Shown here one piece after another: positions 13,688 to 21,852 of a stretch of DNA of 64,000 nucleotides. Each line of letters opens with the position of its first letter. The stretch's first letter is position 1. The stretch comes from Bacteroidota bacterium (GTDB taxonomy: Bacteria > Bacteroidota > Bacteroidia > Bacteroidales > JAADJA01): positions 558,001 to 622,000 of the forward strand of contig JAHLKX010000001.1 in the NCBI GenBank assembly GCA_020444515.1. Reading direction: 5' to 3'. The position numbers were made by a program, and so were the translations under genes. The notes under the pieces are model-generated. The model saw nothing but the letters and a program-made list of their open reading frames with translations, was not told the DNA's origin and did not search any database.

Positions 13688-14125
13688 ATGAGAGATTTGG
13701 CAAAAGATAATCCTTACATGAAAATGGTGGTGAATATACTCCGGACCGGGAATATCATTGACCACAAGGTAACAGAAGTACTGCGTAATTTTGATATTAC
13801 CCATATCCAGTTTAATATACTTCGGATATTGGAAGCTCGTCACCCTGAAAAACTATCGGTTGGCGAAATCAATAATGGATTGCTTTTCCCGACATCAGAC
13901 GTTACCCGATTGCTCGACAGACTCGAAAAACGATCATTGATCAACCGTATTGCGTGTCCAAAAAACCGCAGAAAGATGGATATATCGATTACAGAGAAAG
14001 GAATTCAAAAGATTAACGAAACATTGCCCGAAATCGAAAAAGTATTGATGGGTTATTATAGTGATCGAGTCAATGAAACTGAGCGGGATATAGTGATCGA
14101 CGTGCTTAAAAGATTAAATGTTTAA
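13688..14125 (+). CDS. MarR family transcriptional regulator
   Basis: Winged-helix core LSVGEINNGLLFPTSDVTRLLDRLEKRSLINRIACPKNRRKMDISITEKGIQ. Confidence 0.88.
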   Translation: MRDLAKDNPYMKMVVNILRTGNIIDHKVTEVLRNFDITHIQFNILRILEARHPEKLSVGEINNGLLFPTSDVTRLLDRLEKRSLINRIACPKNRRKMDISITEKGIQKINETLPEIEKVLMGYYSDRVNETERDIVIDVLKRLNV

Positions 14126-14161
14126 ATAAATTAAATAAATAATAATTATAATTTTAAAACT

Positions 14162-14800
14162 ATGAAAACAAACAAATTGTTCTATGTAATGATGTTAGCT
14201 GGGGGTCTCTTTATAGCTTCCTGTTCTAACAATAGTGAGACCAACACTGATTCAGCCTCCGCTGACAGCAATGAAACACTAAAAATAAGCAACGTGGAAA
14301 TTATTCCATCAGATAGCCGGGTATTTTGGAAAGGTGAAATGCTGGGTATTTATTCCCACTCAGGCACAGTTGACCTGACATCTTCTGACATTAAATTGGA
14401 CAACGGAAAAATCACAGGTGGCAGTTTTACCGTTGACCTCAGTACGATGATTCCTACGGATGAAAACTATAACCCTGAAGAGGGAAGCACCCCTGAAAAA
14501 TTGGTAGGGCATCTTTCTTCTCCGGATTTTTTCGATGTAGAAAACCATCCGACTGCGAAATTTGAAATCACCCGTGTTGATGGAAACACTGCCTACGGTA
14601 TGTTAACGGTACGCGGAAAAACAAATGAAGAAAAGGTGGAAAATATCAATATCAGGGAAATGGACGGAAACGTTGTCATTTCAGGCGATCTTGCTTTCGA
14701 TCGTAAAAAGTATGATGTTTCCTGGGATTCACCTGTGCAAGACAGGGTGCTTTCCAATAACATCGAAGTAAAAGTGGAATTGGTTGGAACCAAGGGATAA
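14162..14800 (+). CDS. YceI-family lipoprotein
   Basis: Lipobox GLFIASC; VFWKGEMLGIYSHSGTVDL, LSSPDFFDVENHPTAKFEITRV typical of YceI. Confidence 0.88.
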   Translation: MKTNKLFYVMMLAGGLFIASCSNNSETNTDSASADSNETLKISNVEIIPSDSRVFWKGEMLGIYSHSGTVDLTSSDIKLDNGKITGGSFTVDLSTMIPTDENYNPEEGSTPEKLVGHLSSPDFFDVENHPTAKFEITRVDGNTAYGMLTVRGKTNEEKVENINIREMDGNVVISGDLAFDRKKYDVSWDSPVQDRVLSNNIEVKVELVGTKG

Positions 14801-14853
14801 CATGTGTTGACAGCATGATTAACAGTTAATCAATCCGATCAATCTGATCTATA

Positions 14854-14880
14854 CAACCCCTTCGGAATCCGAAGGGGTTG
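14854..14880 (+). terminator. Rho-independent terminator after yceI-like gene
   Basis: CAACCCCTTCGG-AAT-CCGAAGGGGTTG, 12-bp perfect stem followed by TTCATTTTTC. Confidence 0.85.
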
Positions 14881-14960
14881 TTCATTTTTCTTTGCATCCA
14901 TTTTAATTAAATGTATCTTTATCGCCATGATAGCAGTATTTTTTTACTGATCCTTAATTA

Positions 14961-16715
14961 ATGATATTTTACAAAAACAGACAATTGATGAATTACAATT
15001 ACTTTAATTTGGTTTCAAAGGGAATCCTGTCAGCTTTCCTGATTCTATTCGCTTCAAATTTAGCTTATTCCCAGCAATTCAGACCGCAATCGGCCAAAGA
15101 TATTCCACCGCCACATGAAGTCGCAGAGGGCGATTATCAATACATTCCTCGAAGTTCGATGCCTAAATCGCCGGCCTATAAGTTTTCAATACCGGGGTTT
15201 TTTATGGTGCAAGTGAATGTGGATGAAGAAGGTAATAATATTGTTGGTGATGCGGCCAATGAGCCTTCCATTGCCGTTGATCCCAATGATCCCAATAAAA
15301 TGGCCATTGGCTGGCGTCAATTTGCAACAGTGAATAATAATTTCAGGCAGGCCGGTTACGGATATTCTGCCGATGGAGGACAAACCTGGACATTCCCGGA
15401 AGTCATTGACCCTGGCGTTTTTCGTTCAGATCCTGTTCTGGTGTCAGATTCTGAAGGAAATTTCTTTTACAACAGCCTGACCGTTGAGTTTGATGAATAT
15501 TCCTGTGATGTATATAAATCAATCGATGGTGGTGCTACTTGGGATGCTGGTACTTATGCCTATGGCGGTGATAAACAATGGATGACCGTTGACAATTCAG
15601 AGAGCATCGGTTCGGGTAACCTCTATGCCTTCTGGACTTCTTCCTACAGCATTTGTGAACCCGATTTTTTTACCAGGTCTACTGACTCCGGTCTTTCATG
15701 GGAATATTGCATTTCAGTGAATGGAAATCCCTATTGGGGTACACTTACTACAGATTCTCAGGGGAACCTCTATGTTGCCGGAATGCAATGGAACGGTTTT
15801 GTGGTGGTCAAGTCTTCCAATGCAAAAGATCCTGAAGCTGATATTTGGTGGGATTTTGACATCCCTGTTGATTTGGATGGTTCACTGGTCGGATTTGGAG
15901 GATATGATTGTCCCAATCCCTCAGGATTGCTGGGTCAAACCATCATTGATGCCGATAGGAGTGGAGGCCAGTATGATGGGAACATCTATATTTTAGCTTC
16001 GGTAGAAAGGAACTCCAATGCTGATCCCTGTGATGTTATGTTCACGAGAAGTACCAACGGAGGACTTTCATGGAGCACTCCCATAAGGATCAATGATGAT
16101 CCATCAAATCAAGCCTATCAGTGGTTCGGAACTATGTCGGTGGCCCCAAATGGCCGGATTGATGCGGTGTGGTTGGATACCCGCGAAGTTCTCGGTGATG
16201 TTTGGTCATCATTATATTATTGTTATTCTGAAGATGGCGGTTTAACCTGGGTGGAAAATATTAAATTGAGTGAATCATTCAACCCACATTTGGGATGGCC
16301 ACAACAGGATAAAATGGGTGATTATTTCGACATGATTTCGGATGAAAATGGTGCTCATCTGGCCTGGGCGGGTACATTCAATGGTGAACAGGATGTATAT
16401 TATGCTTATATCTCAATGGAAACCACTGGAATAGCCCAAAATCAATCAGCGACCTCCATGATACTGGAACAAAACTATCCCAATCCGTTCAAAGGCGAAA
16501 CTCAAATTCAATATGTCCTTCATCAATCGGGACCTGTTTCGTTGCACATTACTGATCTGCAGGGAAGGGTAGTGGCCAATCTGGTAAATGAGGTTCAAGT
16601 TGCGGGCCAGTATCAGGTGCTATTCAACGCATCAGATCTGCCTGATGGAGTTTATTATTACACATTGGTCACCAACGCTGGTAGAAATACAAAAAAAATG
16701 ATCGTTCTGAAATAA
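14961..16715 (+). CDS. Secreted BNR/sialidase-like repeat protein with T9SS type A C-terminal sorting domain
   Basis: SADGGQTWTFP, STNGGLSWSTP, SEDGGLTWVEN repeats; C-terminal LEQNYPNPFKGETQIQYVL...GVYYYTLVTNAGRNTKKMIVLK. Confidence 0.82.
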   Translation: MIFYKNRQLMNYNYFNLVSKGILSAFLILFASNLAYSQQFRPQSAKDIPPPHEVAEGDYQYIPRSSMPKSPAYKFSIPGFFMVQVNVDEEGNNIVGDAANEPSIAVDPNDPNKMAIGWRQFATVNNNFRQAGYGYSADGGQTWTFPEVIDPGVFRSDPVLVSDSEGNFFYNSLTVEFDEYSCDVYKSIDGGATWDAGTYAYGGDKQWMTVDNSESIGSGNLYAFWTSSYSICEPDFFTRSTDSGLSWEYCISVNGNPYWGTLTTDSQGNLYVAGMQWNGFVVVKSSNAKDPEADIWWDFDIPVDLDGSLVGFGGYDCPNPSGLLGQTIIDADRSGGQYDGNIYILASVERNSNADPCDVMFTRSTNGGLSWSTPIRINDDPSNQAYQWFGTMSVAPNGRIDAVWLDTREVLGDVWSSLYYCYSEDGGLTWVENIKLSESFNPHLGWPQQDKMGDYFDMISDENGAHLAWAGTFNGEQDVYYAYISMETTGIAQNQSATSMILEQNYPNPFKGETQIQYVLHQSGPVSLHITDLQGRVVANLVNEVQVAGQYQVLFNASDLPDGVYYYTLVTNAGRNTKKMIVLK

Positions 16716-16728
16716 AAATCTACAGACC

Positions 16729-17034
16729 ATGAAAGAAAAACCAAATCATTACGAAAAGGTTAAAAAATATCATCCTGAATACATGGAAGCTGTTGAACGA
16801 CTTGGAAATACAACCAAATCAGGCCCTTTGAACGAAAAAGATGCACAGCTCATTCAACTGGCTGCCTCCATTTCTATACGATCGGAAGGAGCTACCCACA
16901 GCCATACAAAAAGAGCGCTTGAAGCCGGAGCTACGGTGGAGGAGATCAGGCAAACCGTATTATTGCTTACCAATACCATCGGTTTTCCCAGTGTAATGGC
17001 AGGCATGACGTGGGTGAATGACGTTTTGGGATAA
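16729..17034 (+). CDS. Carboxymuconolactone decarboxylase family protein lacking the CxxC pair
   Basis: LNEKDAQLIQLAASISIRSEGATHSHTKRALEAGATVEEIRQTVLLLTNTIGFP. Confidence 0.78.
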   Translation: MKEKPNHYEKVKKYHPEYMEAVERLGNTTKSGPLNEKDAQLIQLAASISIRSEGATHSHTKRALEAGATVEEIRQTVLLLTNTIGFPSVMAGMTWVNDVLG

Positions 17035-17081: not shown

Positions 17082-17300
17082 TTACCTTTCCTTGTTGACT
17101 TTTTTTCTATTATTTCGACGAATCAGATAGAAGCCCACAACGATCGCTATGGGAATGATAATAAATACTATAATATTTACTGCATTAAAATGAACCGGGT
17201 CATGCTCAGTGGAGGGATAATGAGTTGGATTTTGCCCGTGAACACCGACAAATAAAATATAGAAAATACCAGTTAATATTGCAGATCCTGCCTTTTTCAT
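17082..17300 (-). CDS. Small membrane protein of unknown function
   Basis: Signal-like MKKAGSAILTGIFYILFVGVHG plus one TM IIVFIIIPIAIVVGFYLIRRNNRKK; start chosen at internal Met. Confidence 0.45.
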   Translation of the reverse strand: MKKAGSAILTGIFYILFVGVHGQNPTHYPSTEHDPVHFNAVNIIVFIIIPIAIVVGFYLIRRNNRKKVNKER

Positions 17301-17490
17301 TGTCTTAAATTTACAGCACATATATACTATAGCAAATCTATCCATGATTTTGTTCAAAATAAATTTGATTGGCTGTCATTAAACAAGGTGATATTTGTCA
17401 CATCTTTTAGGTGATCAGAGAAAATTTATTCAATAAAAATTAAAGGCCTTTTGGCTCATAAAGGCCATATTATTAAATAATTATAGTAGA

Positions 17491-17639: not shown

Positions 17640-18074
17640 ATGCAAACCAATCCAAAAATTGATAAAACGATTACCGCCGGTGAAAACATTATCTATATCG
17701 TCATCATCGTTTTGCTTTTTGCCAGTGCAGCGCTATTAATCTATGACGAGATCAGAACTTTCTTGCATGTCACCAGCGATACATTTGGAATAAAATTGAT
17801 CATTGAGATCATCGCAAAAACCCTCCTCTTGTTAATGATCATTGAGATTCTGACTACTGTAAGGATTTCTATACGTGAGCATAGCCTCAGTGCTGAACCA
17901 TTTTTAATAGTTGGGCTGATTGCTTCCATTCGAAGAATATTAATTATCAGTGTTGAAACTGCCTATGTTCCCGAGCATTTCAATCATTTCATGATAGAAA
18001 TCGGCGTACTCACTGTTCTAATTTTCATCTTTATTATCTCCATCGTTTTATTGCGCAAACACAATGTCAAATAA
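17640..18074 (+). CDS. PsiE-family (phosphate-starvation-inducible E-like) membrane protein
   Basis: Four TM segments; LLLLMIIEILTTVRISIREHSLSAEPFLIVGLIASIRRILIISVE matches PsiE-like proteins. Confidence 0.7.
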   Translation: MQTNPKIDKTITAGENIIYIVIIVLLFASAALLIYDEIRTFLHVTSDTFGIKLIIEIIAKTLLLLMIIEILTTVRISIREHSLSAEPFLIVGLIASIRRILIISVETAYVPEHFNHFMIEIGVLTVLIFIFIISIVLLRKHNVK

Positions 18075-18097
18075 CCAAAATATCTAAATCAAACGTC

Positions 18098-19174
18098 ATG
18101 GATCCAAACACCTTAATTCCTACTCCAGATGCCATCCCGGCGCCTCCTTGGGTATTTATTGTCTTGGAGCAATTGTTGTTTCTGCTTCACATTCTTGTTA
18201 TCAATGCTGTTCTTGGGGGATTGCTAATTCTTTTAATCTCTCGGTTCAGAAAGCAAACAGTTCCCGATCAATCAGATTCAGGACAACCCGTTGCCAAAAA
18301 GCTCCCGATTTTAATAGCCCTGGGAATCAACTTCGGTATACCGCCTTTGCTTTTTTTACAAGTGGTTTACGGTCATTTATTCTATTCCAGTTCAGTGTTA
18401 ATGGGTACTTACTGGATTTTGATTATTCCTGTTCTGATTTTGGCCTATTATGGAGCTTACATTCATTCCGTTAAGTTTATAACGGCACCATGGTTTTCTA
18501 AGTCAGCCCTGGTTGTCGCGGTCATATTCATACTTTATGTAGGATTCATGCTGGTAAACAATAATTCCCTCATGGAGCAACCCGAAAAGTGGAGTGCCTA
18601 TTTTGAAAACAGGGGCGGTACCATTTTGAATTTGACTGATCCTGCTTTTATTCCCCGTTATCTGCATTTTATTGTTGCATCATTGGCTGTCGGCGGATTA
18701 CTTTATGCGCTTATTTACAAATTTAGTAAGAACTCCACGGAGAAAGACCAAAGGATCAAACAGGGACTGTTGATCTTTGCGATTGCTACTTCGATACAGG
18801 TTGTGGTTGGATTCTGGTATTTACTTTCCATCCCATCTGATTTTATGCCCAATTTCATGGGACAGGATCTTTTTAGCACCATCATGCTGATGGTTGGTAT
18901 CGCAGCGGGAATAGCTTCCCTGGTTTTTGGTTTTTTAGGAAAACTGAATGCAGCCATTGCACATTTGGTGATTACCGTTATCGCCATGATCATCAACCGT
19001 TTTAATCTCCGGATGATGTATTTGAGCGACAATTTTCAATTGAATCAATTAACACTTTCACCTCAATATGGATTACTCATTTTATTCATTTTCATTTTGT
19101 TGATAGGGGTGGGGTCGATCATTTACATGCTAAAAGTCAGTTCCACTAAAACAGAAAGGGAGGTATCATCATGA
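18098..19174 (+). CDS. Cytochrome bd-type CydA-like membrane subunit (divergent, first half of pair)
   Basis: FLLHILVINAVLGGLLI, ALGINFGIPPLLFLQVVYGHLFYSS, RYLHFIVASLAVGGLLYALIY resemble CydA TM motifs; 23 bp after the PsiE-like gene. Confidence 0.55.
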   Translation: MDPNTLIPTPDAIPAPPWVFIVLEQLLFLLHILVINAVLGGLLILLISRFRKQTVPDQSDSGQPVAKKLPILIALGINFGIPPLLFLQVVYGHLFYSSSVLMGTYWILIIPVLILAYYGAYIHSVKFITAPWFSKSALVVAVIFILYVGFMLVNNNSLMEQPEKWSAYFENRGGTILNLTDPAFIPRYLHFIVASLAVGGLLYALIYKFSKNSTEKDQRIKQGLLIFAIATSIQVVVGFWYLLSIPSDFMPNFMGQDLFSTIMLMVGIAAGIASLVFGFLGKLNAAIAHLVITVIAMIINRFNLRMMYLSDNFQLNQLTLSPQYGLLILFIFILLIGVGSIIYMLKVSSTKTEREVSS

Positions 19175-21852
19175 ATTATCCGATTTGGGAACTTTACGGA
19201 TTTAACAGTGGCACCATCGTTGCCATTATTGCTGTTACACATGCATTTATTGCACACCTTGCCGTGGGTGGTGGCTTATTCCTCTGGCTGACCGATTTAA
19301 AAAGTGTTCGGGAAAACAATCTTCAAATAAAAGCTTATGTTAAAAAGCATATTTGGTTTTTCCTCTTGCTGACGATGGTTTTTGGTGGAGTATCAGGTGT
19401 TGGGATTTGGTTTATTATTGCCCTTTCAAACCCTGCTGCAACATCTTCGCTGATCCATAGCTTTGTATTTGGGTGGGCTATTGAATGGGTATTTTTTATA
19501 GGAGAAATCGCAGCCCTGCTGATTTACCATTATCGTTTCGACACAATGAAACCGAAATACAGGTTGCAGGTTTCCTTTCTTTATTTCTTGTTTGCTTGGT
19601 TAAGCATGGTCATTATCAATGGCATACTGGCTTATATGCTTACACCAGGGAAATGGCTTGAAACGCAAAATTTTTGGGATGGATTTTTTAATCCAACCTA
19701 TTTTTCTTCTCTCTTTTTCAGAACAGCTGCAGCAGTCATGATCGCCGGTTTGTTCGGATATATTACGGTTGTTTTTCGTGAGACAGGAGAGTTCAGAACA
19801 AAAATGCTCAGGTATTGCACGAAATGGTTATTGTATCCGACACCTTTCATTGCCGTTACAGCTTACTGGTATTATATTTCAGTTCCAGGAGTAATTCGAG
19901 AAACTGCTTTTCAACTGAATCCCCAATCAGAATTGGTTGTCGTTGTATTTTTTATCACCTCAGCACTGGTCTTTGTTGGAGGATTGTATTTCGCCTTAAA
20001 AACCAGTCCTGCTATACAAAGAATCCTGGTGTTTGTTTTTATTTTGTTCGGGTTGGGATGGTATGGAAGTTTTGAGTATCTGCGGGAGTACGCTCGAAAA
20101 CCTTACATCATTTACGATTATATGTATTCAACATCCATCCTGAAAAAAGATGTAGCCATGCTGAATAAAGAGGGAGTGCTGCGCCATGCAAAATGGACAC
20201 CATTAAAAAAGATCACTGCTGAAAACAGTTTACAAGCAGGCAGGGAGTTGTTTAATATTCAATGCCTGCCTTGTCATACCGTAGGCGGCGTTAAAAATGA
20301 TATAAAGGAAAAAACCCAAAACCTGACCTATATGGGTATGATTTCCCAGATTTACGGGCAGGGAAAAATTCTGGATTACATGCCGGAATTTGTGGGAACG
20401 CAGCATGAAATGGAAGCACTGGCAGCATTTATAACAGCCGACATAAATAAAAAGAATCTCACTACCGAATTATCTCAATTTGAGCCGAAACCAGTTAAAA
20501 ATGAAATCCCCGACTTTGATCAGAAAAATGATGAATATGTGCTTTTGGCCTGGAATGATCTTGGAATGCATTGCATTTCTGACTGTGAACCCTGGTTCAT
20601 TTTATTACCTCCTGCTAATACACTGGAAGCCCAATTGATTAAAAGAGGTCCTTTACCTGAAATCATTCATGAAGGTGTTGAAATACGGTATCAGGTCCAA
20701 AAAGGATTTGAAAACCCATCGGACCATGTTCAATTGTGGGAGTTTGCAGAAAGTTATTTTGGCAAAAAACTGGAAAAAAATATTGGTTTGGCAGGAAAGG
20801 GATTGAGCGGTGTCTTTGATTACAACCAAGACCGGAATAGTTTTATAGCAGAATTTATCCCGGTTGTTCCTTATAATGATGATGGTTCTTTTAATCCGTA
20901 TCCGCAATTTTATTTGGAGGCTGTTGATAAAGGTACCGGGAAAATATTGATGGCTACAAAAACAGTGGCGCCTGTTTCAACTGAAATGGGCTGTAGAAAT
21001 TGCCATGGAGGCGGATGGAAAGTTAATGGTGTTTCGGGAGTGGCAGATGAAACCGCGATCAATATTCTTAAGGTACACGATAGGATCAATGGTACAAATC
21101 TATACGAAACTGCATTGGCAGGAAAACCTCAATTGTGCCAGGGATGTCATGCAGATCCTGCTCTAGGGGCACCCGGAAAACCAGAACATAACAACTTTTC
21201 TACGGCCATGCATGGCTGGCACGCCAATTATATGTACATTGAAGGTGGTAAAGCTTGTGTGATGTGTCATCCGGCTTCTCCAACGGGCAATACACGCTGC
21301 AACAGGGGAATACATCCACAATTGGGTCTGAATTGCACCCATTGCCATGGAACCCTTGCCGATCATGCTTCAGGCTTGCTAAATGCCCAACTCACAACAA
21401 ACAGCAGCAAAAGACTAATCAAGTATTTGAAAACAGTTTATGCGGAATCACCCAGCAATATAAATCCAAGGTTACCCTGGTTGCAAGAACCAGATTGCCT
21501 GGGGTGTCACGAAGACTTTAATAAACCGGAGGAAGGTTTTACCAGTTTTAACAAATGGAATAAGGAATTTGAAGAACTCTTCAGGATCAGAACCGGTGAT
21601 GGAGGAGTAAGATGTGAAGCGTGTCATAATTCAACTCACTCCATCTATCCGGCAAGAAATGATTTTGGATGGAATAAAGATAATACTCAACCCATGCAAT
21701 ATAGTGGTAAACCTTTGCCGATCGGTTCTGAGTTTTCTTGCGAAGTATGCCATAAACAAAAAATGGAGGGATCGATTCACCATCCCAATATGGAAAGGAT
21801 GTTTAGAAATATTGATCTGCCAATAAAAGAAGGGTTGATGATCGGTCTTTAA
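19171..21852 (+). CDS. CydA-like membrane domain fused to c-type cytochrome region with eight CXXCH motifs
   Basis: N-terminal ITHAFIAHLAVGGGLFLWLTD...GWAIEWVFFIGEIAALLIY; CLPCH, CRNCH, CQGCH, CVMCH, CTHCH, CLGCH, CEACH, CEVCH; ATGA overlap with the previous gene. Confidence 0.75.
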   Translation: MNYPIWELYGFNSGTIVAIIAVTHAFIAHLAVGGGLFLWLTDLKSVRENNLQIKAYVKKHIWFFLLLTMVFGGVSGVGIWFIIALSNPAATSSLIHSFVFGWAIEWVFFIGEIAALLIYHYRFDTMKPKYRLQVSFLYFLFAWLSMVIINGILAYMLTPGKWLETQNFWDGFFNPTYFSSLFFRTAAAVMIAGLFGYITVVFRETGEFRTKMLRYCTKWLLYPTPFIAVTAYWYYISVPGVIRETAFQLNPQSELVVVVFFITSALVFVGGLYFALKTSPAIQRILVFVFILFGLGWYGSFEYLREYARKPYIIYDYMYSTSILKKDVAMLNKEGVLRHAKWTPLKKITAENSLQAGRELFNIQCLPCHTVGGVKNDIKEKTQNLTYMGMISQIYGQGKILDYMPEFVGTQHEMEALAAFITADINKKNLTTELSQFEPKPVKNEIPDFDQKNDEYVLLAWNDLGMHCISDCEPWFILLPPANTLEAQLIKRGPLPEIIHEGVEIRYQVQKGFENPSDHVQLWEFAESYFGKKLEKNIGLAGKGLSGVFDYNQDRNSFIAEFIPVVPYNDDGSFNPYPQFYLEAVDKGTGKILMATKTVAPVSTEMGCRNCHGGGWKVNGVSGVADETAINILKVHDRINGTNLYETALAGKPQLCQGCHADPALGAPGKPEHNNFSTAMHGWHANYMYIEGGKACVMCHPASPTGNTRCNRGIHPQLGLNCTHCHGTLADHASGLLNAQLTTNSSKRLIKYLKTVYAESPSNINPRLPWLQEPDCLGCHEDFNKPEEGFTSFNKWNKEFEELFRIRTGDGGVRCEACHNSTHSIYPARNDFGWNKDNTQPMQYSGKPLPIGSEFSCEVCHKQKMEGSIHHPNMERMFRNIDLPIKEGLMIGL

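Follow-up and report, generated by a model that had tools for sequence, protein, structure and literature searches.

A putative cytochrome-c-fed oxygen reductase of the bd superfamily, built from two CydA-like paralogues and a fused eight-heme tail

A 64,000-nucleotide stretch from a Bacteroidota bacterium (assembly GCA_020444515.1, contig JAHLKX010000001.1, positions 558,001 to 622,000 of the forward strand), hereafter the window, carries three co-directional genes: a PsiE-family gene and, after a gap of 23 bp, the gene of a membrane protein (subunit 1), which overlaps by ATGA the gene of a larger protein with eight CXXCH motifs (subunit 2). The open reading frames (ORFs) are exactly those of the initial annotation, including their coordinates, the gap and the overlap. 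By eye, the same annotation read both large proteins as relatives of CydA. The locus raises the question of whether this gene pair belongs to the cytochrome bd superfamily and, if so, what donor and what substrate it would use. According to profile alignments and predicted structures, both subunits are members of the superfamily, with the bd fold.

The two membrane proteins and their relation to CydA

Subunit 2 of the window matches the CydA model (PF01654) with 22.4 bits (E 7e-5, genome search), under the cut-off of 26.2, and 24 out of 36 subunit 2 homologues also match this model (best E 2.6e-15). A family profile of subunit 2 retrieved Geobacillus CydA (5doq_A) from the PDB over residues 19-186 (2.1e-5), and its hhalign comparison with four canonical CydA proteins gave an E value of 1.2e-5. 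In addition, we used Foldseek to compare the AlphaFold model of subunit 2 (pLDDT 86.0, pTM 0.78) with the PDB: the first 18 matches are all chains of bd oxidases (5doq_A, E 1.2e-6).

Residue conservation was then counted in 41 eight-heme subunit 2 sequences. H24, at the place of E. coli His19, is kept in 40 of them, and E105, E112, E306 and R309 (at the places of Glu99, Glu107, Glu445 and Arg448, respectively) are each kept in 41/41; we take His19, Glu107 and Arg448, so numbered, to be residues around the two hemes of the O2 site. The mapping of E306 and R309 comes from a global hhalign run (REYARKPY with AEMGRQPW), and a local run aligns the ARKPY/GRQPW part in the same way. Glu99 and Glu445 of the E. 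coli protein lie at hemes d and b595 (PMC6853902). The position of His186, ligand of the low-spin heme b558, is occupied by Arg184 in 41/41 sequences. Moreover, R184 and E306 are separated by 121-122 residues in all of these sequences, versus about 192 in canonical CydA (e.g. at loci L001 and L082). The Q-loop, i.e. about 70 residues between the equivalents of transmembrane helices (TM) 6 and 7, is thus missing. Judged by its sequence, subunit 2 is not a member of the quinol-oxidising family qOR, since it lacks the Q-loop, the His186 ligand and a CydB partner. The sole CydB gene (PF02322) of the window's genome adjoins the cydA of a canonical cydAB at another site (G000:C2:115343), and this genome also has two heme-copper oxidase genes. 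The absence of the Q-loop bears out the earlier suggestion of a non-canonical complex, in the sense that this is not a canonical quinol oxidase.

For subunit 1, no significant match was found in Pfam, CydA and CydB models included, and searches of NCBIfam and of PDB sequences were uninformative. An hhalign comparison identifies it as a paralogue of subunit 2 (E 5.3e-10), and its profile alignment with CydA itself is weak and colinear (E 0.017); by sequence, it therefore enters the bd superfamily only through its homology to subunit 2. Its AlphaFold (AF2) model (pLDDT 87.8, pTM 0.88) also gave bd-oxidase chains for all of the first 16 Foldseek matches, and subunit 1 would fill the place of CydB in the complex. 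His31, Arg187, Met297 and Arg301 are invariant, the Glu pair is absent, and His190, at the His186-like place, is kept in 41/42 sequences of the eight-heme clade. Most subunit 1 sequences from monoheme or heme-less relatives lack this His190, while His31 of TM1 is always kept. Subunit 1 may bind a heme through His31 and His190.

The cofactor ligands had initially been read as split between the two subunits. In the eight-heme clade, subunit 1 does have His190 and no Glu pair, and subunit 2 has Glu105 and Glu112 with Arg184. However, this is not a general rule, as His190 is mostly missing in the wider family. Subunit 2 alone keeps all the mapped O2-site residues. The CydA-like character of both large proteins was upheld by the profile and structure searches, through PF01654 in 24/36 homologues for subunit 2, paralogy for subunit 1 and bd folds for both, and the motif pairs picked by eye agree with the profile alignments. 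A chance resemblance to CydA is ruled out by the agreement between profiles, folds and conservation. Likewise, the association of the two genes goes beyond chance, since the order subunit 1-subunit 2 recurs in about 45 loci.

The eight-heme tail of subunit 2

The fusion of a CydA-like protein to an octaheme c-type tail, consisting of a CLPCH monoheme domain, an NDLGMHC-containing linker and seven more CXXCH, was confirmed, with motifs at residues 365, 608, 656, 696, 722, 776, 815 and 857 (domains in Table 1). The charges of subunit 2 fit the positive-inside rule for a topology of eight helices whose two ends lie outside, and the tail should therefore be periplasmic. The monoheme family PF13442 is present in 36/36 homologues, and an invariant Met404 (41/41) is probably, from this conservation, the distal ligand of a His/Met-type heme. 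NDLGMHC lies near the start of the linker; its Cys468 is kept in only 33/41 sequences, which rules out a strict catalytic motif.

Beyond the CXXCH motifs, exactly seven His of the heptaheme domain are invariant in 41/41 sequences (636, 681, 684, 715, 823, 870 and 871). They are candidate distal ligands, and the domain could then form a wire of seven bis-His electron-transfer hemes. With seven CXXCH and seven invariant candidate His, no open catalytic heme is needed in the tail. We rejected the heptaheme part as a separate enzyme (e.g. a nitrite or tetrathionate reductase) because each of the seven hemes can be assigned an invariant His as candidate partner.

Tail homologues also exist as stand-alone proteins (L091:8496-9767, L092:9752-11110, L093:9866-11152 and L095:9320-11551, with 7, 7, 7 and 9 CXXCH, respectively). 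None of these four has a CydA-like gene alongside, and their neighbours were uninformative on the separate-enzyme reading. At L094 (Desulfuromonas), two neighbouring but separate genes encode the monoheme core and the heptaheme protein. From these split genes and the stand-alone heptaheme proteins of L091-L093, the tail looks like a fused module. At L068:3705-6356, an eight-heme subunit 2 is split into ORFs of 611 and 264 aa (frameshift, real fission or assembly error).

Table 1. Features of the three-gene locus in the window
Feature	Coordinates	Strand	Extent	Basis or description
PsiE-family gene	17640-18074	+	144 aa	ORF; PF06146
Subunit 1 gene	18098-19174	+	358 aa	CydA/CydB-fold membrane paralogue
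Subunit 2 gene	19171-21852	+	893 aa	CydA-like core and eight CXXCH
Subunit 2 membrane core	19171-20124	+	residues 1-318	eight predicted TM helices, CydA-like, without Q-loop
Monoheme cytochrome c domain	20218-20436	+	residues ~350-422	CLPCH at 365; PF13442, E 3.7e-7
Beta-rich linker	20515-20979	+	residues ~449-603	AF2 strands in 456-599
Heptaheme domain	20992-21849	+	residues 608-893	seven CXXCH; PF14522, PF22113, PF14537

Distribution and proposed function

We screened 84,980 species genomes with two peptide patterns in one run, so that the counts are a lower bound. Among the 51 loci found, about 45 have an eight-heme subunit 2, nearly all beside subunit 1 where the contig allows; L096 (no CXXCH-rich match) was left out, and L068 and L051 (broken or misread starts) were not interpreted. 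The carriers belong to about nine phyla: Bacteroidota, Thermodesulfobacteriota, Ignavibacteriota, Calditrichota, KSB1, Spirochaetota, Zixiibacteriota and Gemmatimonadota, plus deltaproteobacteria placed in Myxococcota by NCBI ranks. They include a named cultured strain, Draconibacterium orientale FH5T. Its locus (L076) lies on NZ_CP007451.1, with subunit 1 at about 942735-943787 and subunit 2 at about 943784-946435. In an unrooted tree of the cores built by a quick method, a branch with support 93 separates the eight-heme rows and L094 from the others, and the trait changes once. Three eight-heme subclades were distinguished: deltaproteobacterial rows, Bacteroidales, and a mixed subclade of many phyla, in which the window falls. 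Within the window's genus, the genes were found in 1 of 16 other genomes (2/17 with the window's own), several of these genomes being incomplete.

Taken together, the conserved O2-site residues, the loss of the quinol module, the bd fold, the predicted heme chain on the periplasmic side and the O2-defence neighbours described below lead us to favour a bd-type reductase of O2, or possibly of NO or peroxide, that is probably fed by cytochrome c rather than by quinol and would serve mainly for O2 removal. Low-potential periplasmic cytochromes would feed electrons into the seven-heme wire; the electrons would then cross the higher-potential His/Met monoheme, which would replace heme b558, and the two-heme site of subunit 2 would reduce O2 to water using cytoplasmic protons. 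The main job would probably be O2 removal in anaerobes or microaerophiles exposed to oxygen.

The same heme chain could be run in the opposite direction. Menaquinol would then be oxidised in the membrane at a non-canonical site, which may lie in subunit 1, and electrons would leave through the octaheme tail for periplasmic or extracellular acceptors, as in the inner-membrane quinol dehydrogenases of metal-reducing bacteria. Such systems commonly contain low-potential bis-His multihemes, the tail resembles domains II/IV of MtrC/MtrF (PF22113), and many hosts come from anoxic sites. Nevertheless, a plain quinol dehydrogenase would have no need of invariant O2-site residues. Further points against it are the missing Q-loop and the recurrence of O2-defence genes in the neighbourhoods, where we noticed no porin-cytochrome pattern among the neighbours listed. 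We consider this reverse flow unlikely.

The neighbourhoods of the eight-heme loci contain several genes of oxygen metabolism. Canonical cydAB is near L028, L077 and L082, with a cydA identified by clustering at L086. A flavodiiron protein is encoded near L073, L082 and L086, a rubrerythrin or ferritin-like protein near L052, L080, L085 and L086, and a desulfoferrodoxin near L052 and L073. In addition, L086 has superoxide dismutase (SOD), class III cytochrome c and a Fur-type regulator as neighbours, while rubredoxin is found near L082, and a thioredoxin reductase-like protein and thioredoxin near L073. A cydB, flavodiiron or rubrerythrin gene lies within 10 kb (<=10 kb) at 8/34 loci, versus 1.16 expected from the genome-wide counts of these genes (P 1.2e-5); for the 11 deltaproteobacterial genomes alone, 5 were observed versus 0.58 expected (P 1.3e-4).

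Several points weigh against the O2-removal reading. The scored families were picked after viewing the neighbourhoods, so that both P values are optimistic, and at 26/34 loci, the window's included, no gene of the three families lies within 10 kb. Moreover, 25/34 carriers already have cydAB and 19/34 a heme-copper oxidase; the complex is therefore not their only oxidase.

The flavodiiron proteins near three loci also bear on the substrate, as members of this group reduce NO as well as O2 (Roo/NorV is bifunctional for both; PMC11451228). Catalase activity has been reported for canonical E. coli bd, to judge from a title cited in PMC10839748, and this would likewise suit a substrate such as NO, peroxide or another small oxidant in place of O2. 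However, the adjoining genes (cydAB, superoxide reductase, rubrerythrin) suggest O2 and its products instead, and nitrogen-oxide genes do not recur among the neighbours, which makes this alternative decidedly improbable.

The wider family, in which subunit 2 has one or no heme, bears on both the donor and the role. In the phylum, 22/396 sampled genomes have subunit 1 homologues. In most cases the accompanying subunit 2 is 430-500 residues long and bears one CXXCH, or none in L041 and L045. The operon order subunit 1 - Rieske - cytochrome b - subunit 2, seen in several of them and confirmed with Pfam in L032, L034, L037 and L041, ties these relatives to a quinol:cytochrome c reductase, and a cytochrome c input fits the operons of the monoheme relatives. 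These operons also agree with energy conservation, in which the complex would be a normal terminal oxidase of microaerobic growth; such a respiratory role has been proposed for the bd-like oxidases of Nitrospira and Nitrospinota (for Nitrospira: PMC6606698, PMC12342949). Rieske or cytochrome b genes, however, do not recur beside the eight-heme loci, and the sporadic presence in the window's genus suggests an accessory role, so that we regard this role as quite unlikely for the eight-heme complex.

As side observations on the wider family, CydA-like genes are interleaved with Rieske/cytochrome b genes at L032:9695-13907, L034, L037, L039, L042, L041 and L045, making these operons candidates for a bc-bd supercomplex. 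Those of L041 and L045 adjoin heme-copper oxidase-like genes, and L031:9659-13380 shows another arrangement of this family, in which one subunit 1 comes after two monoheme subunit 2 paralogues in tandem.

Accessory genes and comparison with known systems

The PsiE-family assignment of the first gene was verified (PF06146, E 3.7e-10, 40.5 bits versus a cut-off of 23.9), but the supposed pairing of PsiE with the complex is not general. PsiE also lies directly 5' of subunit 1 in L026/L083, L029/L053, L030/L056, L047, L050, L052 and L054. It is confined to the mixed-phyla subclade (7/17 rows, 5 changes on the tree) and absent from the other two. L046 shares the window's downstream genes (TPR protein, gyrA-like, clpC-like) but lacks PsiE. 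PsiE is thus an optional accessory in one subclade, not a defining partner, and a conserved subunit is ruled out on the same grounds. Our literature search found no role of PsiE in respiration.

Upstream of PsiE, positions 13688-17034 encode a MarR-type regulator, a YceI-like lipoprotein, a large secreted protein with a C-terminal sorting-like domain, and an AhpD/CMD-family protein. The gene order is similar in a congener (L026, genome G006), and this is possibly a redox-stress neighbourhood of the window's own lineage. In the gap 5' of PsiE, the minus strand carries a 91-aa ORF (17082-17357) that starts with TTG and has a second, internal Met start, a segment resembling a signal peptide and one TM helix; it may encode a genuine small membrane protein.

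Canonical CydAB (PF01654 and PF02322; 5doq, 6rko, 9r2g) shares with subunit 2 the CydA-like core, the fold and the two-heme O2-site residues. Unlike it, the eight-heme system has no Q-loop, Arg in place of His186, a CydA-like paralogue instead of CydB, and an octaheme tail. Published parallels include the bd-like oxidases of Nitrospira, Nitrospina and Manganitrophaceae, described as lacking a quinol site; cytochrome c is the proposed donor for those of the OR-N type, with function unproven (PMC10839748, PMC12342949, PMC6606698, PMC3578206, PMC9040806). Proteins of the OR-N/OR-C families (CydAA'-like, from Nitrospira/Nitrospinota; Murali et al. 2021, cited in PMC12342949 and PMC10839748) likewise combine two CydA-like paralogues, and the missing Q-loop fits their defining lack of a quinol site (PMC10839748, PMC13189123). 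However, 14 helices are predicted for the bd-like protein of Nitrospina (PMC3578206) versus eight here, and the partner genes differ. Our literature search found no description of a CydA-multiheme (octaheme) fusion.

The Bacteroidota operons with Rieske and cytochrome b genes (L032, L034, L037, L039, L041, L042 and L045) have homologous subunits 1 and 2, several of the latter keeping a C-terminal CXXCH. They lack the heptaheme domain and are set in a bc-type operon, whereas the eight-heme genes stand alone. The cc(o/b)o3 cytochrome c oxidase of Desulfovibrio vulgaris (PMC4383621) is also membrane-bound, fed by c-type cytochromes and used for O2 defence in an anaerobe, but it belongs to the heme-copper family, whose fold is unrelated to that of the bd-like complex.

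We tentatively suggest, with some reserve, that the eight-heme complexes form a distinct class of oxygen reductase, spread, probably by horizontal transfer, over about nine phyla. In this class, a bd-type O2 site would be wired directly to the periplasmic multiheme cytochrome pool through the fused eight-heme chain, by-passing the quinone pool; the complex would be a cytochrome c3-type:O2 oxidoreductase with which anaerobes defend themselves against O2. For the non-quinol bd branches, whose donor has been proposed and is unproven, the octaheme-fused member in the cultured D. orientale FH5T makes the donor question testable. If the proposal is true, the complex would be a third kind of membrane-bound O2 reductase for the O2 defence of anaerobes, beside cytochrome bd and the heme-copper oxidases.

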